This document shows, piece by piece, positions 24,185 through 35,236 of a stretch of 35,236 nt of DNA. The translations under genes were made by a program, and so were the position numbers. The stretch is from Clostridiaceae bacterium (lineage in GTDB: Bacteria; Bacillota; Clostridia; DSM-8532). Every line of letters starts with the position of its first letter. The stretch's first letter is position 1. Below the pieces are notes generated by a model that saw only the letters and a list, made by a program, of their open reading frames with translations, was not told the origin of the DNA and did not search any database. The stretch is taken from NCBI GenBank assembly GCA_012523705.1, contig JAAYTU010000014.1, positions 1 to 35,236 on the forward strand, given 5' to 3'.

Positions 24185-25105
24185 TTATTTATTACTAAAA
24201 CCTGCATCTGAAATTATTTTTCTCAGCTCTTCAATCTTATCCTCTGCAGGAGGTTTGAAATCCTGCATTTCATAAGTCATTCCACAAGAAACATATTTCC
24301 CGCTCCCGTATTGATGGAAGGGCAGCAGTGCAAGTTTATCAATTCCGTATTCCTTAAGTTCGGAGATTACCTTGGATACAAATTTTTCAGTATCGTTGAC
24401 GCCCGGAATTACAGGTACTCGCACCAATATATTTGCCTTTTTCTCTGCAAGCATTTTTAAGTTTTCTTTTATATGGCTGTTTGAAGCACCGATATACTTT
24501 TTGTGAATCTCATTGTCCCAATGCTTAAAATCATACAGAAAGAGATCGGTATAGGGCAGAACATCCAACAACACCTTTTTATCTACAGCTCCTGTAGTTT
24601 CAATAGCTGTATTAACGCCTGCGTCATGGAGCATCTTAAGCAGTTCAAGGGCAAATTCAGATTGAACCAACGGTTCACCCCCAGAAAGAGTTAATCCGCC
24701 CCCGCTTTGATCATAAAAAACCTTATCTCTCATTACGATGTCGAAAACCTCTTGGGCTGTCATCTTTTCACCTTTAACGCCAAGTGCACCGGTTGGGCAA
24801 ACATTTACCCAGCTTAAATCCTTGGAGGCATTGATAGCTTTCCAGTCTATCAAAAGCCCGTCCTCGGTCAACTTCACTTCATTATTAGGGCAGCTACGCT
24901 CACATAAGCCGCAACCAATGCATTTGGATTTTACATAGAAAACCTGAGGTTCGTAGGCCTGGGATTCAGGATTGGAGCACCATTTACAGCTAAGAGGACA
25001 TCCTTTTAAAAATACAATAGTGCGTATTCCAGGGCCGTCATGTATACTATAGCGCTGAATATCAAAGACTGTACCAGTTATTGTGCGGGCATTTTCAGCA
25101 TTCAT
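24185..25105 (-). CDS. glycyl radical enzyme activase (radical SAM)
   Basis: 306-residue activating enzyme that installs the glycyl radical on the GRE two genes upstream. The radical SAM motif is CPLSCKWC (C36, C40, C43), preceded by the GRE-activase signature YSIHDGPGIRTIVFLKG, and SGGEP occurs near residue 138. The ferredoxin-like insert has CIGCGLCERSC (C62, C65, C68, C72) and a lone VNVCPTGAL (C103). The usual second CxxCxxC triplet between 72 and 103 is missing, so probably one auxiliary [4Fe-4S] cluster rather than two. Its start overlaps the pfkB-like stop by 4 bp (ATGA), indicating translational coupling. Confidence 0.94.
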   Translation of the reverse strand: MNAENARTITGTVFDIQRYSIHDGPGIRTIVFLKGCPLSCKWCSNPESQAYEPQVFYVKSKCIGCGLCERSCPNNEVKLTEDGLLIDWKAINASKDLSWVNVCPTGALGVKGEKMTAQEVFDIVMRDKVFYDQSGGGLTLSGGEPLVQSEFALELLKMLHDAGVNTAIETTGAVDKKVLLDVLPYTDLFLYDFKHWDNEIHKKYIGASNSHIKENLKMLAEKKANILVRVPVIPGVNDTEKFVSKVISELKEYGIDKLALLPFHQYGSGKYVSCGMTYEMQDFKPPAEDKIEELRKIISDAGFSNK

Positions 25106-26070
25106 GACTTCACCAGCCTTGGAACAGTTTTCATGCAGTTTTCTATCTCACTGATTGCAGGGACAGAAGATACTCCCCCCCGATTAGTTATAGATTGGGC
25201 ACCTGCGGCATTGGCGAAATCTAAAATATCTTCTATTTCATTTTGCGTCATCCCATCAATATTGCCACGCTTAATAATTCTATACAGCACAGCTGCCATA
25301 AAGCAGTCTCCGGCACCTGTTGTATCGACAGGCTTTGTATCATATGTGTTCTGACAACCCGTCCAACCATTATAATAGTAGAAGGATCCTTTAGGGCCGC
25401 AGGATACTATGACCATCTTCGGACCATAGGAAATAATTTTTTTGGCTGCCTTCTCAAGATCTTCCTCTCCTGTAAGCAGGGCAATTTCCTCTTCGGAAGA
25501 CTTATATATATCTACATAAGAAAGTGACTTTCTTATTATCTCTATAGCCTCTTCCTGGCTGGCCCAGAGACTTTCTCTATAATTAACATCCAATGTAATC
25601 AGCATTCCCTTTTGTCGAGCCTCATTTATCACGTGAAAGGTTGTATCACGAATTGGTTGATCTGTAAGGCACATGCCTGAAAAATGCAGGACTTTGGAGG
25701 CTAACACCTTTTCCATTGGAACATCCTCAAGTGTTAATCTTATGTCCGCAGCATATTTCCTTGAAAAAGTGAAGCTTCTTTCTCCATTGTTGAGAGTAAC
25801 AAGAGACAGGGTTGTAAAGGCTTCAGGGTCTGCTTTACATCCACTCATGTCCACATTGCAGCTTTCAACCTTACCTCTTATGTTTTTACCCAATTCGTCA
25901 TAGCCCACTTTGCCCACCATAAGGGTTCTGAGCCCTAATTTGCCTGCTGCAGCAGCTAAATTGGCTATAGTTCCACCGGCATTGCATTCAAATACTAAAT
26001 TCCCTGATGGCGATGGATCCATAGGTGTAAAGTCTATTAATATATCTCCTATTGCACAAAGATCATACAT
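25102..26070 (-). CDS. PfkB-family carbohydrate kinase
   Basis: 322 residues of the ribokinase/fructokinase fold. The first signature reads NAGGTIANLAAAAGKLG (near 30-46, usually GG.x.N.A) and the second is DTTGAGDCFMAA, with catalytic Asp255 and the anion-hole GAGD. The opening MYDLCAIGDILIDFTP is fructokinase-like. Phosphorylates a sugar or polyol hydroxyl with ATP. It lies between the GRE and its activase (13 bp after the GRE stop, 4-bp overlap with the activase), an unusual arrangement implying that kinase and GRE work on successive intermediates. The expected product is a sugar or polyol phosphate; the precise substrate cannot be read from sequence. Confidence 0.92.
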   Translation of the reverse strand: MYDLCAIGDILIDFTPMDPSPSGNLVFECNAGGTIANLAAAAGKLGLRTLMVGKVGYDELGKNIRGKVESCNVDMSGCKADPEAFTTLSLVTLNNGERSFTFSRKYAADIRLTLEDVPMEKVLASKVLHFSGMCLTDQPIRDTTFHVINEARQKGMLITLDVNYRESLWASQEEAIEIIRKSLSYVDIYKSSEEEIALLTGEEDLEKAAKKIISYGPKMVIVSCGPKGSFYYYNGWTGCQNTYDTKPVDTTGAGDCFMAAVLYRIIKRGNIDGMTQNEIEDILDFANAAGAQSITNRGGVSSVPAISEIENCMKTVPRLVKS

Positions 26071-26083
26071 AGTTATCTTCCTT

Positions 26084-28489
26084 TCATGAAACCTGTTGAA
26101 CAGTTCTAGCTATAATTTCATTTTGTATATCTCTGTCTAATTCTACAAAGAATGCACTGTATCCCGCCACACGAACAACCAGACTGCGATGCTTTTCCGG
26201 ATGCTTCTGTGCGTCAATCAGTTTTTCCTGTGTCAGAATATTAAATTGAATATGAAACCCACCCAAAGAAAAATACGCACGAATCAGATCAATAAGCTTG
26301 TGCTTATCCTCTTCTGTTTTTAAAATAGTGGGTATGAATTTCAGGTTAAAATTCACTCCGTTGACAGCCCGATCATGATTCAGCTTTGCCACAGATTTTG
26401 CTGCAGCTGTCGGACCATTGGTGTCCATACCATGCTTAGGTGACACGCCACCATCAGCAAGGGGAGTTCCTGATTCACGGCCGCTTGGCAGAGCTGCCAC
26501 TTGGCGTCCAAGGGGTGTATTGGAAGACAGACAGAATAAGCCGGGACGGAATTTCCCGCCACGGAAATCATACTTATCATCAAAGCAAGCACAATACTGT
26601 TCTGCTGCCCATGCTACCATATCATCAACCTCATCAATATCATTTCCATACTTAGGGATTTTATTAATGAGTCTGTGCTTCAAAATTTCATTGTTGGTGA
26701 AATTGCTTTGCAGAGCATCCAACAGCTCCTGCATGGTTACCAGTTTATCCTCGAAAACAGCCTTTTTAATTGCGGTCAAAGAATCACCTACATCCTGCAC
26801 ACCAACACCCTGAACTCCAATATAGTTATACTTTGCTCCCCCTTCGGTGCAATCCCTTCCATTTTCCATACAACCGTCAAGAAGCATGGAGCAGAATATA
26901 TGCTGACCAAATTTAGAATGTAGTATCTCTATGGAATTAAGAGAGCTCACCATCATATCAGTAAAATATCTTACCTGTGTTTCATATGCCTTTAAAATAT
27001 GCTCAAAGCTGGTGAAATCCTCCGCCTTTCCTGTTTTAGGACCCATCTGCTGACCGCTAAAGGCACATACTCCATCATTAAGGGCAAGCTCTAAGCATTT
27101 TGCCAGATTAAAATAACAGGCATTTGTAATACCCATGGTATTACCGCTTGGTGTAGGCTCAACACATCCAACAATGGCGTAATCCCTTGCATCCTCCAAT
27201 GAAGCTTTATCCTTAACCAGAGCATCTATAATGGCATCATCATTAAACAGAGGCAGCTTTCCGCCTTCTTTCTCAACCAGTATTTCCAATACCCTTTCAA
27301 TAAACTTGTCGGGAGTATTTTTAGATACTCTAATGCTCACATTTGGCTCCGAGTTGAAAACACTGGACTCAGCATCAAGGCAAAGATATGAAAAATCATT
27401 AGTTGCATCATTACCATCCTTACCAACGCCCGATAAAACGACATTAATTGTAGTGGCAAATCCGCCATTATTTCTTGCGCTGCTAAAAGTACCTGCTTTA
27501 ATAACATCACTATGCTTAACCCATAGGGCTTCAAGCAGCTCTCTTGCCTCTTCTCTGACTAATACTCCATCGGCAATATCCTTATCATAGTAAGGAGCAA
27601 TATACTGATCGAATCGGCCTGCTGAAATAGCAGAACCATTTTGAGATATGTAATCAATCAAAATGGTAAACCAGTAGGATTGCAATGCCTCGTAGTAGCT
27701 TTCCGCCGGATAGTAGGGCACTCTGTCACATACAGAGGCAATAAGCTCAAGCTCTTTTTTACGCCTTGTATCATCTGTTTCCCCAGCCATTTTCCTGGCC
27801 AGAGCTGCATAACGTTCAGAAAAGCACTTAACGCCTTCTATAATAATGAGAACAGATTTATAAAAATGAATCTTCTCAGTATAATCATGATCAAGTATGT
27901 CTAAATTCTCAATATGTTCCTTTGCTTCCTTTTCAAGGCCGGCAAATCCCTTTTTAAGAACAGTTTCAATATTAGGAATGTAATGACCGTAACCACTTCT
28001 AGTGCGACTGATGGGGTCAAATACGCGGTATTGAGAATTTAAAACTTCCATTATTTTATCATCTATATAATAGCGGGCCATGTCCCCCGTATTCTTATTC
28101 TTCCACCATGGATAAATCTCTTCAAGAAGGTACTTTTTATCCTCCTCTGTAATCTGCAATGTATCAACATTTCTGACTGGCATCAGATCCAGCTCTTTTT
28201 TATCAAATGAACCAAACTCAGGAAATAGTGGGGCAGAGCGTGGCTTGCTGGCATGATTTCCTACAATTAGCTCATCCTCGTCTATAAAAATAGTCATATT
28301 CTTAAGAACATGAGTAAGGGCATACGCGCGCCTCAATATGTTCGGAGCGCCTTCAGTCTGTTTATAGCTTTCTGTTAAAAGCTTTGCCCTTTCCACGCAT
28401 ATTGCAGGTTTTACTCCCCTCATTGCTTCATTTAGTTTCTTTGTTCGTTCTTCTCGTTTAATTCCCTCGGGAAGTAGTTTTTTTAGCAT
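26084..28489 (-). CDS. dehydratase-type glycyl radical enzyme, substrate unknown
   Basis: 801-residue GRE. The glycyl-radical loop is VVRVAGYSAFF (Gly776). The thiyl-radical motif is GCVEP (Cys442, Glu444); Glu two residues after the cysteine marks eliminating or dehydrating GREs and rules out pyruvate formate-lyase, which has adjacent cysteines. SGYGHYIPN keeps the histidine equivalent to glycerol dehydratase His164 (here His169). However, the segment usually NGHS (His281-Ser282) is NGSA (Ser286-Ala287), and the Asp447 position (Cys+14) is Asn456. This argues against glycerol or 1,2-propanediol as substrate. Context (sugar importer, PfkB kinase, DeoC aldolase) points to C-O cleavage of a phosphorylated polyol or anhydro-sugar. 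The ATG follows AGGTGA, 40 bp after the importer ATPase gene. Confidence 0.93.
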   Translation of the reverse strand: MLKKLLPEGIKREERTKKLNEAMRGVKPAICVERAKLLTESYKQTEGAPNILRRAYALTHVLKNMTIFIDEDELIVGNHASKPRSAPLFPEFGSFDKKELDLMPVRNVDTLQITEEDKKYLLEEIYPWWKNKNTGDMARYYIDDKIMEVLNSQYRVFDPISRTRSGYGHYIPNIETVLKKGFAGLEKEAKEHIENLDILDHDYTEKIHFYKSVLIIIEGVKCFSERYAALARKMAGETDDTRRKKELELIASVCDRVPYYPAESYYEALQSYWFTILIDYISQNGSAISAGRFDQYIAPYYDKDIADGVLVREEARELLEALWVKHSDVIKAGTFSSARNNGGFATTINVVLSGVGKDGNDATNDFSYLCLDAESSVFNSEPNVSIRVSKNTPDKFIERVLEILVEKEGGKLPLFNDDAIIDALVKDKASLEDARDYAIVGCVEPTPSGNTMGITNACYFNLAKCLELALNDGVCAFSGQQMGPKTGKAEDFTSFEHILKAYETQVRYFTDMMVSSLNSIEILHSKFGQHIFCSMLLDGCMENGRDCTEGGAKYNYIGVQGVGVQDVGDSLTAIKKAVFEDKLVTMQELLDALQSNFTNNEILKHRLINKIPKYGNDIDEVDDMVAWAAEQYCACFDDKYDFRGGKFRPGLFCLSSNTPLGRQVAALPSGRESGTPLADGGVSPKHGMDTNGPTAAAKSVAKLNHDRAVNGVNFNLKFIPTILKTEEDKHKLIDLIRAYFSLGGFHIQFNILTQEKLIDAQKHPEKHRSLVVRVAGYSAFFVELDRDIQNEIIARTVQQVS

Positions 28490-28529
28490 TTAATCACCTG
28501 TCTTTCTTATAACCCTAGGCAATTACCAA

Positions 28530-30020
28530 TTACATCTTAACCGGAACCTCTTTTGTCGCATATGACATCAACAATTCCTCATTTGCCTCCTCGGCATCGA
28601 CAATTGCCATCATATGGCCTTCATTCATAACCATAATTCTGTCACAGACCCCCAGAAGCTCAGGGAGCTCGGAGGAAACCATTACTATCGACATTCCGTC
28701 CTTAACCAGATTATTTAAGATGTTATAGATTTCTTGTTTTGCTCCTACGTCAATACCTCTTGTAGGCTCATCCACCAGAAGGATCTCACAATCGCAGGCC
28801 AGACATTTGGATAAAACAACCTTCTGCTGGTTTCCACCACTCATGTTTTGAGTAATTACATCGATTTTGCCCGGTCTTGTGTGGAACAGGTCCACATAAT
28901 CTTTGGCTATTTGTTTTTCCTTCCTTGTGTTTATCAATCCGTTTGTCATATACTTCTTTAATGAAGCTATACTTGTGTTGTAGGTTACGTTCTGCTTCAG
29001 CATCAGTCCTTGAGTTTTTCTTTCCTCAGGAACTATACCCAATTTAGCCCTGATTCCATCGGCTGGGCTTCTGAACTTAACGTTTTTACCCTTAATCTTT
29101 ACGCATCCGCCATCAACAGGATCAGCACCAATAATTGCACGAAGGATTTCAGTACGCCCTGCACCTGCAAGACCTGCTATTCCCAGAATCTCTCCTTTTC
29201 TCAAACAAAAGCTTACATCGTGCAGGATGCCTTTTCTTGTAAGGTTCTCTACACACAAAATTTCTTTCCCGATATTACGCTCCTTTTTAGGATAGATATC
29301 CGACATATCCCTTCCAACCATTCTGTTTACAAGCATATCGGTATCATAGTCACTGACTTTGCCGCTTTCTACCTTCTTACCGTCCTTTAAAATAGTAAGG
29401 GTAGTGCAGAGCTCAAAGATTTCCCTTAAGCGATGTGATATATATATAAAGGTTATACCTTTTTTGGCAAGAGACTTTACAAGGGCGAAAAGTCCTTCGA
29501 GCTCTGCTTCCCCTAATGTAGCAGTCGGTTCGTCCAATACTATTATTTTTGCATTACGGGACATAGCCTTGGCAATTTCAACCATCTGCCTCTTGGCTAC
29601 ACTTAAGTCACCTACTATGGCATCCGGATCCAGATCCAGCTGAAGCTCCTGAGATATTCTCAAGGCCTCATCTCTCATCTTCTTATAGTCAACCATGCCA
29701 TATCTGTTTTTAGGATAACGACCAATAAAGATATTTTCAGCAACTGTCCTATGCTCTAAAAGCATCAGCTCCTGATATATAACTGCTATTCCCTTTTCTA
29801 TCATCAATGCAGGAGTCGGATTTTTTATTTTCTCTCCATCTACAATCACTTCTCCTGAATCACTGACATAAGCCCCTGACAAGATCTTCATAAGGGTTGA
29901 CTTACCTGCACCGTTTTCGCCAATCAATGCATGTATTTCCCCCTTCTTTACTGATATAGAAACATCGTCAAGTGCCTTTACACCAGGAAACTCCTTTGAT
30001 ATGTTATTCATTACGAGCAT
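28530..30020 (-). CDS. sugar ABC importer ATP-binding protein (RbsA/MglA-like)
   Basis: 496-residue double-ABC ATPase. The first half has Walker A GENGAGKSTLMKILSG, signature LSVAKRQMVEIAKA and Walker B IIVLDEPTATLGEAE. The second half has the degenerate Walker A GLAGAGRTEILRAI, signature MSGGNQQKVVLSK and ILLVDEPTRGIDVGA. This tandem layout is diagnostic of CUT2-type importers for pentoses, hexoses, autoinducer-2 or related polyols. Start ATG after GGGGGG. Directly precedes the GRE gene, so import and radical chemistry are co-expressed. Confidence 0.95.
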   Translation of the reverse strand: MLVMNNISKEFPGVKALDDVSISVKKGEIHALIGENGAGKSTLMKILSGAYVSDSGEVIVDGEKIKNPTPALMIEKGIAVIYQELMLLEHRTVAENIFIGRYPKNRYGMVDYKKMRDEALRISQELQLDLDPDAIVGDLSVAKRQMVEIAKAMSRNAKIIVLDEPTATLGEAELEGLFALVKSLAKKGITFIYISHRLREIFELCTTLTILKDGKKVESGKVSDYDTDMLVNRMVGRDMSDIYPKKERNIGKEILCVENLTRKGILHDVSFCLRKGEILGIAGLAGAGRTEILRAIIGADPVDGGCVKIKGKNVKFRSPADGIRAKLGIVPEERKTQGLMLKQNVTYNTSIASLKKYMTNGLINTRKEKQIAKDYVDLFHTRPGKIDVITQNMSGGNQQKVVLSKCLACDCEILLVDEPTRGIDVGAKQEIYNILNNLVKDGMSIVMVSSELPELLGVCDRIMVMNEGHMMAIVDAEEANEELLMSYATKEVPVKM

Positions 30021-30192
30021 TGGAAACCCCCCTAATAATCCTCCAAAAATACTTTACTGGTTGTCCCTGTCGAAGAATCTGCTTACTATACCTGGGCTTA
30101 CTATGAGATTCTTCTATTTGGCGGGGCAAAGCCCCGCCTAGCCTATATTACATTACTAACTCTATACAGTATCTTGGCTTTGGTCTTGAATC
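30021..30192 (-). other. intercistronic hairpin region between binding-protein and ATPase genes
   Basis: A perfect GC hairpin GGCGGGGC-TTT-GCCCCGCC (30120-30138) without a U-tract follows the binding-protein gene. Nearer the ATPase is a second dyad, AGAATCT/AGATTCT (30073-30111), enclosing two direct copies of GCTTACTAT. In CUT2 operons such structures often protect the abundant binding-protein message from 3' decay while lowering downstream expression; that role is inferred here. Confidence 0.7.
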
Positions 30193-31185
30193 TTACAGAC
30201 CTTTACCAATCCATTCGTCAATGTTTTCTTCGCTTACAATTGCTGTGTCAAGCTGAATGCGTGTATCTATTTTTTCCCCGGTAAGTACCTTGTATGCATA
30301 TTGAATTCCTTCTGGTGCACAGTATGGATAAACAACTGTAAATGCCATAGAACCATTCTGAATAGCTTCAAATGCAACCTCGGTTCCGTCCATTCCTATA
30401 ACCTTTATACCCTCGTCTTCACGGCCTGCAGCTCTGATTGCTTCAACAGCACCTAATGCCATTTCATCATTGTGAGTATAAACTGCGTCAATTTCGCCAG
30501 GTCCAAAACGCTGTAGCATATCTTCCATGTATCTCATTGCATTCTCACGAAGATAATCGCAATATTGCTCTGCAATAATTTCCATTTCAGGATAATTAGC
30601 TAGCTCTTCAATAAATCCTTCATGACGATCGATTGTAGCTGATGCTCCTGCTGTACCCTGGATTTCAATTATTCTGCCTTTTTCGTCAAGCATTTCAGCC
30701 AATAGCTTAGCTGATGCAACACCCATAGGTCTGTTCTCTGCACCGATAAAGCTGGTTACTTCGGTATTAACATTTCTGTCGAGAGTAAGAACAGGAATGC
30801 CTGCCTTCATAGCCTTTTCACATACATCTGTCAGCGCCTCAGCTGTCAGAGGAGAAATCACAAGTAAATCAATACCTTGTGCAATCAAGTCTTCAACGTC
30901 TGCAACCTGTTTGGATGAGTCGTTGTTGCCGTCTGTCACGATAATCTCCATGTTTGGATAATGCTCTTTCGCGTATGCTACGTTTTCCTCAACCATAGCA
31001 ACTCTGAAAGGATGGTTCATTGTTCCTTGTGAAAAACCTACTTTATATTTCTTATCTGCAGGGCTTTCAGAAGGTGATGGTTCATTTGAGTTTGTTGCCT
31101 GTGGTGCAGCATTTCCTGTGCACCCTACTAGCATAGCCATTACTAAAATAACTGCTAGCAATGAAAAGATTAGTCTTTTTTTCAT
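30193..31185 (-). CDS. sugar ABC importer substrate-binding lipoprotein (RbsB-like)
   Basis: 330 residues, periplasmic-binding-protein type I (peripla_BP_4). Signal MKKRLIFSLLAVILVMAMLVGC ends in a lipobox (LVGC), followed by a short Ser/Pro/Asn linker. Family motifs are KVGFSQGTMNHPFRVAM near residue 47, GIDLLVISPLTAEAL, GIPVLTLDRNV and DAVYTHNDEMALGAVEAI. It captures the substrate outside the membrane. The ligand is not predictable: the binding pocket resembles those for sugars and polyols in general. AGGGGG lies 10 bp before the ATG. Second gene of the operon, an order (permease first) unlike the usual A-C-B. Confidence 0.94.
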   Translation of the reverse strand: MKKRLIFSLLAVILVMAMLVGCTGNAAPQATNSNEPSPSESPADKKYKVGFSQGTMNHPFRVAMVEENVAYAKEHYPNMEIIVTDGNNDSSKQVADVEDLIAQGIDLLVISPLTAEALTDVCEKAMKAGIPVLTLDRNVNTEVTSFIGAENRPMGVASAKLLAEMLDEKGRIIEIQGTAGASATIDRHEGFIEELANYPEMEIIAEQYCDYLRENAMRYMEDMLQRFGPGEIDAVYTHNDEMALGAVEAIRAAGREDEGIKVIGMDGTEVAFEAIQNGSMAFTVVYPYCAPEGIQYAYKVLTGEKIDTRIQLDTAIVSEENIDEWIGKGL

Positions 31186-31262
31186 TAGATTTTCCCCCTA
31201 ATAATAAAATTTATAATAAAATCACGCCCTGTGATATGGGCACCTGTTAATGGCATATTCTG

Positions 31263-32252
31263 TTATGCCTTACGCTTTTTCTGGTTTTGATCAAGTAGTA
31301 TAGCAAGGATAATGATTATACCCTTCACTATTCTTTGAATAAAAGGTGAAACACCTATAATGTTGAGAAGGTTCGCAATAACTGACAGAAGAGTTGCTCC
31401 CACCAGTGTTCCTATCACACCACCAATACCACCACTAGCACTGGTTCCACCAATTACTGACATGGCGATTGCATCAAGCTCAGCACCTTCCCCCGCTGTA
31501 GGCTCACCAACACTTAAACGTGATATCAGTATCAACGAGGATAGTCCTGCTAAAAATCCTGAGATTATATAGACAAGCCACTCTGTCCTCACTACATTTA
31601 TTCCGCTTAGTCTTGCCGCCTCACGGCTATCGCCAATTGCGTATACGCTTCGGCCAAAGGCTGTATACTTCAATATAAGGTGTGCGATAATCAATACCGC
31701 AAAGAAGATATATACCGGAACAGGAATTCCGAACAAATCTCCCTGACCTAGGAACTTAATATCTACGCCGCTTTTCCTCCAGCTCTGAGGTGAACCGTTT
31801 GCTATATACAGCGCCAATCCGCGGAAGGCTGTCAATGTTCCCAAGGTCATGATAAAGGGAACTATTTTACCCTTTGTTATGCCAAGACCATTGATGAAAC
31901 CGATTGCCGCGCCTATTACTAGGCCGATAATAATGGCAAGCACCGGATTAACGCCTTTTTGGAACAGCATGGCAACTGTTACTGCTACTACACCGACACT
32001 TGCTCCAACCGAGAGATCAATTCCCCCTGTTAAAAGAACAAATGTCATACCAACGGCAATAATGCCATTGATAGCAATCTGACGAATAATGTTTACTACA
32101 TTACTAAACTTTAAAAAAGTTGGCTCTAAAATTGATGCAATAATTATTATGGCAATCAATACCCATAATATACCGAAAGACTTTAGTTTCTGGATAGAAT
32201 TATTAAATATCGTATTGCCTGATTTTGCAGAAACTGATGACTTATGTGCCAT
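31263..32252 (-). CDS. sugar ABC importer permease (RbsC-like)
   Basis: 329-residue CUT2-type permease (BPD_transp_2) with about nine or ten membrane helices. Conserved segments are TFVLLTGGIDLSVGASVG, GLGITKGKIVPFIMTLGTL, GDSREAARLSGINV and AIAMSVIGGTSASGGIGGVIGTLVGA. I chose the ATG at 32252 (MAHKSSVSAKS) because GAGGAGG lies 6 bp upstream; an in-frame extension to 32306 would overlap the promoter start region. First gene of the eight-gene operon, directly behind the shared promoter and operator. Confidence 0.94.
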   Translation of the reverse strand: MAHKSSVSAKSGNTIFNNSIQKLKSFGILWVLIAIIIIASILEPTFLKFSNVVNIIRQIAINGIIAVGMTFVLLTGGIDLSVGASVGVVAVTVAMLFQKGVNPVLAIIIGLVIGAAIGFINGLGITKGKIVPFIMTLGTLTAFRGLALYIANGSPQSWRKSGVDIKFLGQGDLFGIPVPVYIFFAVLIIAHLILKYTAFGRSVYAIGDSREAARLSGINVVRTEWLVYIISGFLAGLSSLILISRLSVGEPTAGEGAELDAIAMSVIGGTSASGGIGGVIGTLVGATLLSVIANLLNIIGVSPFIQRIVKGIIIILAILLDQNQKKRKA

Positions 32253-32289
32253 TTTAATCCTCCTCAACTTGTTGTCCCGTTTGTTGCAT

Positions 32290-32302
32290 TTGTATGATAC
32301 AA
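32290..32302. promoter_or_regulatory. GntR-type operator at the operon promoter
   Basis: TTGTATGATACAA is a perfect 13-bp palindrome immediately downstream of the -10, covering the transcription start. On the minus strand it extends to TGTATCATACAAAT, identical to the deoC operator. The GTAT-N-ATAC core suits a HutC/UTRA-class GntR repressor. Confidence 0.75.
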
Positions 32303-32304
32303 TC

Positions 32305-32333
32305 ATTATAACACCGACAATTCTGTTTGTCTA
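32305..32333 (-). promoter_or_regulatory. promoter of the GRE/importer operon
   Basis: Minus-strand TAGACA (32333-32328), 17-bp spacer, TATAAT (32310-32305), with an extended -10 TGT before it. This is a strong promoter that would need tight repression. Confidence 0.82.
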
Positions 32334-32404
32334 TAAGTTTTGCTAAATATTTTTAGCAATTTCTAATAATTAATACCCTCAATAGTCGCTTGGAATTATG
32401 GGAA

Positions 32405-32447
32405 TTAACAGCTGTGTTTAATTAGTAGTATACAAATGATACAAATT
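32405..32447 (+). promoter_or_regulatory. candidate gntR promoter with operator half-sites
   Basis: TTAACA (32405-32410), about 18 bp, TATACA; the direct repeat ATACAAAT-G-ATACAAAT overlaps the -10. The half-site ATACAAAT also occurs in the other two operators, suggesting autoregulation. Confidence 0.5.
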
Positions 32448-32545
32448 ATATTAATATATACATTAGGGTTTTGTACAATGTAAATTATGGAGACTTATTG
32501 AAAAGCATGATAATTATTATTAACTATTGAAGGAAGGGAACAGCC

Positions 32546-33355
32546 GTGGATACTAATTACATCATGAAGACATTTAAATTCTCGCCAGACACCAATACTC
32601 CCCTTTATGAACAGCTTGCTTCATATATTAAGATTCAGATACAAGCAGGAGTTCTAAAACCAGGTGATAGAATAGTCACCGAGAATGCCTTGAGCGAGCT
32701 ATTAAACATCAGCAGGACAACTGTTCGCCAGTCTATGAATCGCTTAGTGGAGGAGGGGTTCTTGGTTCGCTATAGGGGAAAGGGGTCCTTTGTTGCAGAT
32801 CAAAAGCTGAAGCGAAACATAAACTATATGTATAATTTCTCTGAAAGCATAACGGATGCTGGAGCAACTCCATCCTCGACTGTACTTATTAACAAAGTAG
32901 TTGATGTGGATGAAAATACTGCTCAACTGCTTCAGCTTCCCCGTGGTCAGTCAAAGGCTTTCCATCTGAAAAGACTTCGTTGCGCTGATGACGAACCTAT
33001 CATACTTGAATCAACTTACATACCATATTATCTTTGCCCCGGAATTGAAAAATATGACTTTTCTACTGCTTCTTTATATAATACATTAAGTAACTACTAT
33101 AATCTTCAGCTCTATCATGCAATTGAAACCATAGAAGCAATAATCATTGAAAAAGAATATGCGAAGCTTCTAGAAATAAAGACCAAGGCTCCGGGCTATA
33201 AAATTAAGCGAATCTCATACCTTGATTCAGGCTTTGTATTCGAGCTGACAACATCAGTTTCCCGGTCCGACAAAACTATTTTCACCCTTGATCTTTATAA
33301 GAATTCAAACCCAAACAAGCATTTAGTCGAATTGAACAGACAGATAAACCTATAA
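32546..33355 (+). CDS. GntR-family transcriptional regulator with UTRA domain
   Basis: 269 residues. N-terminal winged helix (about residues 14-80) with PLYEQLASYIKIQIQAGVLKPGDRI and LLNISRTTVRQSMNRLVEEGFLVRYRGKGSFVA. The C-terminal UTRA ligand-binding domain (about 100-260) includes LQLPRGQSKAFHLKRLRCADDEPIILESTYIPYYLCPG. HutC-subfamily regulators of this form are usually repressors released by a sugar phosphate or pathway intermediate. Start is a GTG with AGGAAGGG 8 bp upstream. Divergent from the importer-GRE operon and upstream of deoC, so it is the likely regulator of both. Ends at its own terminator. Confidence 0.94.
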   Translation: MDTNYIMKTFKFSPDTNTPLYEQLASYIKIQIQAGVLKPGDRIVTENALSELLNISRTTVRQSMNRLVEEGFLVRYRGKGSFVADQKLKRNINYMYNFSESITDAGATPSSTVLINKVVDVDENTAQLLQLPRGQSKAFHLKRLRCADDEPIILESTYIPYYLCPGIEKYDFSTASLYNTLSNYYNLQLYHAIETIEAIIIEKEYAKLLEIKTKAPGYKIKRISYLDSGFVFELTTSVSRSDKTIFTLDLYKNSNPNKHLVELNRQINL

Positions 33356-33417
33356 ATTAACCTTCAAATCAAAGTATAAATTATATTAAAAACTACATAA
33401 TAATTATTAGCTCTTGG

Positions 33418-33466
33418 AATATCCCGAAACATACTGATAATCTCAGATTTTGGGATATTTTTTTTG
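33418..33466 (+). terminator. intrinsic terminator after gntR
   Basis: AATATCCC pairs with GGGATATT and is followed by a run of T (33458-33465). It separates gntR from deoC, which has its own promoter. Confidence 0.88.
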
Positions 33467-33518
33467 CTTAACCCAAGGATTATTATTATAACTTACTATA
33501 ATAATCCCAAAAAAATGC

Positions 33519-33547
33519 TTGATTTTGTATATTATTGCGTATATAAT
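33519..33547 (+). promoter_or_regulatory. deoC promoter
   Basis: TTGATT (33519-33524), 17-bp spacer, TATAAT (33542-33547). The start lies inside the operator. Confidence 0.82.
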
Positions 33548-33573
33548 AAATGTATCATACAAATCATACATTT
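33548..33573. promoter_or_regulatory. GntR-type operator at the deoC promoter
   Basis: AAATGTAT and ATACATTT form an outer inverted repeat with a 10-bp centre, containing TGTATCATACAAAT. The same 14-mer stands three bases after TATAAT at the GRE operon promoter. Confidence 0.75.
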
Positions 33574-33606
33574 ACATTAATGTATAGGGAAAGGGGTAAA
33601 TAATTT

Positions 33607-34323
33607 ATGAAGCCTACAAAGAAAGCAAGCGAAATGACAGTTAAGGAATTAGCATCCTACATCGACCAGTCGGTATTAAAACCCGAATTTACAGAGAGTG
33701 AAATCAGAAAGTATATCCAGGAGGGTATCGATTTTGGCTGCAGAACAGTATGCATTAATCCATCCGCCCTTGATATTGCACGTGAGATGACAAAAGGTAC
33801 AGAAACAGAAATCTGCGTTGTTTGTGATTTCCCCTTCGGCCTGTCAACTACAAAATCCAAGGTAATGCAAGCAGAAGAAATCTGTAAGGACGGCGATGTT
33901 TTCGAATTGGATATCGTCGCAAATTATGGCTGGATTAGAAGTGGACTAATGGACAAGGTTGAAGAAGATATCAGAGCGGTTGTGGAGGTTTGCCACAAAT
34001 ATGGGACTGCAGTAAAAGTCATTTTTGAAACCGACGCTCTTACCATTGAACAAGTGAAACAGGCTACTGAAGCATCAATTGCTGCAGGTGCTGATTTTAT
34101 CAAGACCTCAACCGGATTCTACACAGGCGGAGAGTCTAAAGGCGCTACCCCTGAGATTATTCAGATTATGATGGATACTGCAAAGGGCCGTTGCAAGATC
34201 AAGGGTTCCGGCGGAATCAGAACAAGAGAACATTTCCTACAGCTGATTGATATGGGAATAGATCGCATGGGAGTAGGCTATAGATCTACACCTGTTGTTT
34301 TGGATCAGGCTCCTAAAGCCTAA
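33607..34323 (+). CDS. deoC: deoxyribose-phosphate aldolase
   Basis: 238-residue class I aldolase cleaving 2-deoxy-D-ribose-5-phosphate to glyceraldehyde-3-phosphate and acetaldehyde. The catalytic residues are all present at the positions known from the E. coli enzyme: Asp102 (ELDIVANYG), Schiff-base Lys166 (ADFIKTSTGF) and Lys199 (KIKGSGGIRT). ATG follows GGGG with about 10 bp spacing. No nucleoside genes (deoA, deoB, cdd, pdp) are nearby, unlike normal deo operons. Instead it shares an operator with the GRE/importer operon, so its substrate is probably generated by that pathway. A variant aldolase acting on a related deoxy-sugar phosphate is possible. Confidence 0.93.
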   Translation: MKPTKKASEMTVKELASYIDQSVLKPEFTESEIRKYIQEGIDFGCRTVCINPSALDIAREMTKGTETEICVVCDFPFGLSTTKSKVMQAEEICKDGDVFELDIVANYGWIRSGLMDKVEEDIRAVVEVCHKYGTAVKVIFETDALTIEQVKQATEASIAAGADFIKTSTGFYTGGESKGATPEIIQIMMDTAKGRCKIKGSGGIRTREHFLQLIDMGIDRMGVGYRSTPVVLDQAPKA

Positions 34324-34609: not shown

Positions 34610-34638
34610 TTTACATCCATAAAATAGTAATATATAAT
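34610..34638 (+). promoter_or_regulatory. promoter of the CBM25-like gene
   Basis: TTTACA (34610-34615), 17-bp spacer, TATAAT (34633-34638), about 50 bp before the ATG. Confidence 0.72.
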
Positions 34639-34690
34639 TGTCTTTGAAATGGCTTGTCTTAAAGGCCTAAAAAAAGGAGCGACGTATACA

Positions 34691-35236
34691 ATGAAAAAGC
34701 AAGTTTTTGAAGAAAACGGTGTAATTTTTTCATGTGCTGCAGCTAAAGCAGGAGAAACTGTTGAAATTATCTATACTGGACTATTAAAGAATTCCGGTGC
34801 TACTGATGTAAAGGTTCACATTGGCTATAATGAATTATGGGAAAATGCTGAAACCATAGATATGGAATTAAAGGATGATGCATTTGTTGCAAGTGTTAAA
34901 ATAGCTCAGGCCGGAAGCCTAAATTGTGCATTTGTTGATTCTATAGGAAACTGGGATAATAACTCCGGAGCAAACTATAGCTTGGCAGTAGCTAAGAAAA
35001 CATCCCGAAAAACAACAACTACCCGAGCTAGAAAAACGGCTGAGACTGAAGAAGCTTCAGCAACAAAGAAAGCTGCAGCTAAAAAGACTACTAAAACAAC
35101 TGCGAAAAAGGCAACCGCTACTAAAAAGGCTACGACAACAAAGACAGCAGCAAAAAAGACAACTACTGCTAAAAAGACTACTTCATCAAAGGCAGCTTCA
35201 ACAAAGACTACTACTGCTAAGAAGACCGCTGCGAAA
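34691..35236 (+). CDS. CBM25-like starch-binding protein with histone-H1-like tail, partial
   Basis: Read directly from the sequence: 182 codons visible, open at the right edge. Residues 1-102 (MKKQVFEENGVIFSCAAA onward) form a beta-sandwich resembling CBM25/CBM53 starch-binding modules: VEIIYTGLL, HIGYNELWENAETIDM, and the hallmark FVDSIGNWDNNSGANYSL. There is no signal peptide, so it should be cytosolic. From residue 103 the protein becomes a low-complexity tail of Lys, Thr, Ala and Ser with repeated AKKTT/AKKA units, as in histone H1-like and AlgP-type proteins. Such tails bind nucleic acid or polyanions. The combination suggests a protein attached to intracellular glycogen or starch that can also contact DNA, RNA or polyphosphate. 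GGAG lies 11 bp before the ATG. Confidence 0.78.
   Translation, partial: MKKQVFEENGVIFSCAAAKAGETVEIIYTGLLKNSGATDVKVHIGYNELWENAETIDMELKDDAFVASVKIAQAGSLNCAFVDSIGNWDNNSGANYSLAVAKKTSRKTTTTRARKTAETEEASATKKAAAKKTTKTTAKKATATKKATTTKTAAKKTTTAKKTTSSKAASTKTTTAKKTAAK

Follow-up and report, generated by a model that had tools for sequence, protein, structure and literature searches.

A gene cut off by the end of a clostridial contig encodes a starch-binding module of family CBM25 followed by a Lys/Thr/Ala-rich tail of histone-H1-like composition. The pairing of module and tail is real and conserved rather than a fusion artefact: it recurs in 21 further proteins with complete tails, distributed over three families within the class to which this bacterium belongs. 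Reasoning by analogy, we tentatively propose that the product binds glycogen in the cytosol, that its tail binds nucleic acid or another polyanion, most likely chromosomal DNA, and that it anchors or spaces glycogen on the nucleoid. The protein family appears to be undescribed in the open-licence literature that we searched, where we found no report of an intracellular CBM25 protein, of a glycogen–nucleoid tether or of a starch-binding/histone-like fusion in bacteria.

The CBM25 domain and its basic tail

The window (the whole stretch of DNA analysed, 35,236 nucleotides) is the entire contig 56 (G000:C56) of a 1.94 Mb Clostridiaceae genome in 146 contigs, with an estimated completeness of 99.7%. 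The gene of interest occupies positions 34691-35236 of the plus strand, starts with ATG and is open as far as the contig end at 35236. It carries its own predicted promoter and ribosome-binding site, and the features of the region are as follows.

34610..34638, plus strand: putative sigma-70-type promoter, TTTACA-17-TATAAT, 11 of 12 consensus matches
34673..34679, plus strand: putative ribosome-binding site AAAGGAG, 11 nt 5' of the ATG, read off the sequence
34691..34993, plus strand: CBM25 domain, residues 1-101 (PF03423 score, alignment to the solved 2c3v and 2laa, beta-sandwich model)
34817-34819, 34838-34840 and 34952-34954, plus strand: presumed binding residues His43, Trp50 and Trp88 (alignment to 2c3v)
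34997..35236, plus strand: tail rich in Lys, Thr and Ala (residues 103-182), cut off by the contig end (composition; disordered in the model; basic tail kept in 21 relatives)
35105..35226, plus strand: 48-bp (16-codon) unit within the tail, 2.5 copies, 81% matches (Tandem Repeats Finder)

The remainder of the gene was not found on another contig: apart from the tail, a DNA search with its last 75 bases gave only short matches expected by chance. Relatives with complete genes have 121-204 aa when counted from the first Met, so that little of the window protein is likely to be missing.

The initial annotation had recognized a CBM25-like domain containing NWDNNSGANY (residues 87-96 of the window protein), and both profile scores and alignment to solved CBM25 structures bear this out. 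The window protein belongs to CBM25 by its PF03423 (CBM_25) score of 29.2 bits (cut-off 27.3) and lies below the cut-off of CBM53 (26.5 bits against 27.6); its closest relatives are just under the PF03423 cut-off, at 25.8-26.7 bits, and pass that of CBM53. A profile of the family retrieves 2laa (E 2e-9) and 2c3v (E 5e-7), both CBM25 domains of known structure. His43, Trp50 and Trp88, which are invariant in an alignment of nine tailed proteins, align with His26, Trp34 and Trp74 of 2c3v, a Bacillus halodurans module in which we take these three to be the sugar-contacting residues, a His/Trp/Trp platform for alpha-glucan. From the conservation of these presumed binding residues, alpha-glucan binding by the CBM25 domain is likely.

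The AlphaFold model of the CBM is a confident beta sandwich (pLDDT 89). A Foldseek search with the CBM alone placed 2c3w at rank 8 with 21% identity, and CBM25 structures were absent among the VIA-align matches listed for the same query. Other Ig-like sandwiches score about as well as 2c3w, and thus the beta-sandwich fold by itself is not specific to CBM25. When the full model of 182 residues was the query, the disordered tail caused the matches to be unspecific Ig-like ones.

The tail had been described as histone-H1-like, rich in Lys, Thr and Ala and at least 80 residues long. Its 80 residues up to the contig end include T28, K22, A19, S5, R3 and E3, with a net charge of +22 (K+R 31%, KRATS 96%). 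In the AlphaFold model it has low confidence and is without secondary structure, and so modelled it has the character of the Lys-rich, H1-like, disordered C-terminal tails of the histone-tailed phasins PhaF and PhaM. Its likeness to the bacterial histone H1-like families is one of composition only, with scores below cut-off for both HC2 (PF07382, 12.3 against 40) and NF038053 (15.9 against 80). Lys, Ala and Thr each use several codons within the tail, which is therefore not a simple triplet-repeat artefact despite the 48-bp repeat. Of the 410 complete ORFs in the fetched DNA that are 120 aa or longer, 10 have a basic C-terminus of this kind (K+R ≥28%, KRATS ≥62%, net charge ≥+7). All ten belong to relatives of this CBM protein, and no unrelated ORF in that set carries such a tail; nor did the tail match, as a module, other proteins of the same genome.

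A cytosolic location, also part of the first description, agrees with what was found. The maximum 19-residue hydropathy of the window protein is 1.3 and falls within the CBM, which by this measure leaves no signal peptide or transmembrane segment. No hydrophobic N-terminal segment was present in the window protein or in six relatives checked, the CBM of the relatives starts within a few residues of the protein start, and a Pfam search found no anchor domain in the window protein or its relatives. The complete relatives thus have neither a surface-anchoring signal nor a wall-attachment region, either of which would have spoken against an intracellular role.

The tailed family and its probable link to glycogen

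The search of other genomes for the same domain pair yielded the 21 complete-tail proteins, which form one clade. The pair was found in 9 of the 14 species of the genus, and the class-wide search added seven genomes of genus g32 (family f26) and seven of family f54, every one of which carries it. Because the tailed gene was not seen in the other 5 of the 14 species, it is dispensable. The 21 tails are 19-102 aa long, with 29-48% K+R and a net charge of +8 to +19, and beyond the CBM the tailed relatives barely align. Some tails in family f26 have 19-21 aa and are still at +8 to +10, and several tails are rich in acidic residues. One tail (L038) contains KRGRKPSK, which by eye is AT-hook-like.

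In a tree of 86 CBM domains (108 columns, tails excluded), all 22 tailed proteins fall on one side of one branch, with 95/90 support and presence in 92% of bootstrap trees; none of 500 shuffles reproduced this split. With only 108 columns, the deeper branching is uncertain. The simplest history suggested by these sequences is that the tail was gained once and then drifted in length and sequence while its charge was retained. Outside the Lys-tailed clade, a further CBM25/53 protein (L058:5977-6399) ends in a tail rich in Thr, Ser and Arg (net +5), which may have become basic independently.

For making and using glycogen, the genome of the window encodes glgC, glgP and two glgA-type matches, and the window itself holds a type I pullulanase without a visible signal peptide. 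This pullulanase had been offered as the connection to intracellular glucan metabolism. The connection to intracellular glucan holds, but the pullulanase lies 20 kb away and was not seen as a neighbour in relatives. A better link to glycogen is a paralog, the second, untailed CBM25 protein of the same genome, whose gene is flanked by M42 peptidases on one side and glgA on the other; several relatives likewise have glgA or M42 as a neighbour. The class has many CBM25 proteins with neither tail nor signal peptide, some adjoining glycosyltransferase and nucleotidyltransferase genes, a context that fits a general intracellular glucan role. In a class sample of 391 genomes, glgA was present in 21 of 21 tailed genomes versus 266 of 370 others (Fisher p 0.002, with kinship ignored and the tailed genomes drawn from three lineages); the gene is common in the class (287/391). 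One genome of the same genus (G012, 99% complete) is without both the tailed CBM gene and a glgA match and retains an untailed CBM25 gene.

Proposed role, gene neighbourhood and alternatives

In the mechanism that we propose, the CBM25 domain would hold alpha-glucan chains of glycogen and the disordered polycationic tail would bind a polyanion, most likely chromosomal DNA, so that the two parts jointly could anchor glycogen on the nucleoid or keep it spaced there. Anchoring would reduce clumping and polar drift and would help both daughters to inherit glycogen. We infer the DNA binding from the composition of the tail, and we also infer granule positioning and its benefit to the cell. In an E. 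coli csrA mutant, glycogen collects at the old poles, where the chromosome is excluded (PMC4836754), and a nucleoid tether would counter such old-pole accumulation. The proposal draws on the domain architecture, the absence of export signals, the single clade with a basic tail, the conserved promoter and the glycogen synthase of the genomes concerned. Against a tether, the 19-21 aa tails of family f26 are perhaps too short for one, several tails contain acidic residues and the gene is missing from some species. A further point against the proposal is the neighbourhood, in which the genes conserved best are those for RNA modification and methyltransferases rather than for glycogen.

The drift of the tails would also suit a granule coat without a tether, in which the CBM sits on glycogen and the charged, disordered tail is a brush that separates the particles or keeps them in solution and has no specific partner. 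Such a brush is consistent with the predicted disorder, with the retention of charge and composition but not of sequence and length, and with the positive charge still borne by the very short f26 tails. We consider it unlikely, as a brush would not require the charge to be so consistently positive and the untailed CBM25 paralogs in the same genomes do without a tail.

The neighbourhood of the gene bears on two further alternatives. In five sister species, genes for RsmF, an S4/pseudouridine synthase and a Methyltransf_32 methyltransferase are followed by the tailed CBM gene, and in most sister species the NadE gene lies 3' of it. The same three genes are upstream of the tailed CBM gene in one f26 genome (G056), and the methyltransferase gene adjoins it in the other f26 and f54 relatives. 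In the window genome, the methyltransferase and NadE genes are on contig 51 and the tailed CBM gene is elsewhere, beside deoC. The position that the CBM gene holds in the sisters, between methyltransferase and NadE, is taken on contig 51 by an unrelated antisense gene (L066:6005-7912, minus strand), the product of which has a [FeFe]-hydrogenase-like domain and a methyl-accepting chemotaxis-type signalling domain. The TTTACA and TATAA columns are conserved 5' of the tailed CBM gene in the aligned upstream DNA of five species, although the window gene is relocated; the window gene and its putative promoter moved together. Three sister species (G001, G002 and G011) have the methyltransferase and NadE genes with no CBM gene between them, and of the 391 genomes in the class sample, 136 have the methyltransferase and 21 the tailed CBM gene. 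Given the move of the window gene, the three sisters without a CBM gene and the far commoner methyltransferase, the neighbourhood is conserved but not needed. The methyltransferase was likewise rejected as an obligate partner, being far commoner than the CBM gene and separated from it in the window genome.

At its present location, the gene follows a predicted sugar pathway (window positions 24185-34323), comprising a glycyl radical enzyme and its activase, a PfkB kinase, a ribose-type ABC transporter, a GntR regulator and deoC. The glycyl radical enzyme and activase score above subfamily cut-offs and below every specific-substrate cut-off.

With RsmF, the S4/pseudouridine synthase and the methyltransferase as conserved neighbours, the tail might instead bind RNA or the ribosome and couple glycogen to the translation apparatus. 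This seems to us quite improbable, because the gene has its own promoter, has left the neighbourhood in the window genome and is missing from it in the three sister species, and because the methyltransferase is so much commoner than the tailed gene. Very unlikely, in our judgement, is a tail that binds polyphosphate, joining two storage polymers, or whose lysines are modified as a switch by the neighbouring methyltransferase. Lys-rich proteins such as AlgP do associate with polyphosphate granules (PMC9239181), and each of the three families has the methyltransferase gene next to the tailed gene; however, the methyltransferase looks RNA-directed from a weak TRM13 match, is widespread without the CBM gene, and is broken in one genome (G298, L080) in which the adjoining CBM gene is intact. 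The break there consists of two pieces in different frames, reflecting a frameshift or a sequencing error. Finally, characterised CBM25 domains occur mainly within secreted amylases (e.g. PMC10826348), but a surface- or wall-bound starch-binding protein is scarcely credible and was rejected for want of an export signal, given the N-termini of the window protein and six relatives, the position of the CBM near the start and the lack of an anchor domain.

Comparison with other polymer-binding proteins

The mechanism proposed for the glycogen–nucleoid tether is a strong analogy to PhaF, PhaM and AlgP, and on these grounds the initial suggestion of tethering to the nucleoid or to polyphosphate is plausible. 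PhaF of Pseudomonas and PhaM of Cupriavidus necator (Ralstonia eutropha) likewise join a storage-polymer-binding N-terminus, which sits on PHB, to a Lys-rich, histone-like, disordered C-terminal tail on DNA (PMC13052382; structure of PhaF, PMC3574117). Loss of PhaF leads to aggregated granules and loss of PhaM to one or two oversized granules (PMC13052382). DNA binding and nucleoid placement of granules have been proposed or shown for those proteins. They differ in having a phasin-type N-terminus and a polyester as polymer, in place of CBM25 and glycogen; no phasin family was among the Pfam matches of the window protein up to E 1, and no leucine zipper is predicted in it. AlgP of Pseudomonas aeruginosa has a long histone-H1-like tail, binds DNA and is required for the even spacing of polyphosphate granules (PMC9239181). 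It spaces the granules by means of this tail, which, unlike that of the window protein, consists of 154 residues of Pro-rich KPAA repeats, and it has no carbohydrate-binding domain.

Little is known of where bacteria place glycogen and how they share it between daughters, and a 2025 review of granule positioning leaves glycogen unmentioned (PMC13052382). With a conserved protein whose parts could link the chromosome and glycogen, the question comes within reach of experiment. We hold it doubtful, though possible, that this is the first bacterial protein dedicated to glycogen–nucleoid tethering, a glycogen counterpart of PhaF and AlgP that evolved independently by the addition of a histone-like tail to a starch-binding module. 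If true, storage-polymer binders with H1-like tails evolved on separate occasions for PHB, for polyphosphate and for glycogen.

Among eukaryotes, STBD1 of animals and SAGA1/SAGA2 of Chlamydomonas carry starch-binding domains of family CBM20. Like the tailed proteins, they combine such a domain with a second part, which in their case brings glycogen or starch to a structure within the cell (PMC5358331, PMC13167743); they differ in their starch-binding family and in their targets, the ER membrane or the pyrenoid. The CBM25 domains of the Bacillus halodurans amylase (2c3v/2c3w) and other amylases are of the same family and share the aligned presumed binding residues, but they are parts of secreted hydrolases, whereas the window protein is stand-alone and cytosolic with a basic tail.

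These bacteria also have cytosolic CBM25 proteins without a tail (e.g. L002/L067, beside glgA), which have a homologous CBM, no signal peptide and an adjoining glycogen gene; they differ in being without the Lys tail and in forming a separate branch of the CBM tree. In families f48 and f58, signal-less CBM25 proteins bear a different basic C-terminal extension, of the type LKKSYLIAKKIKIAFYKTISFLSKAF (L106:2506-2976, L108:2319-2861 and L109:2319-2792; also L112), which resembles an amphipathic helix of the kind that binds membranes. Fusion of an intracellular CBM25 domain to one anchor or another may have happened on more than one occasion.
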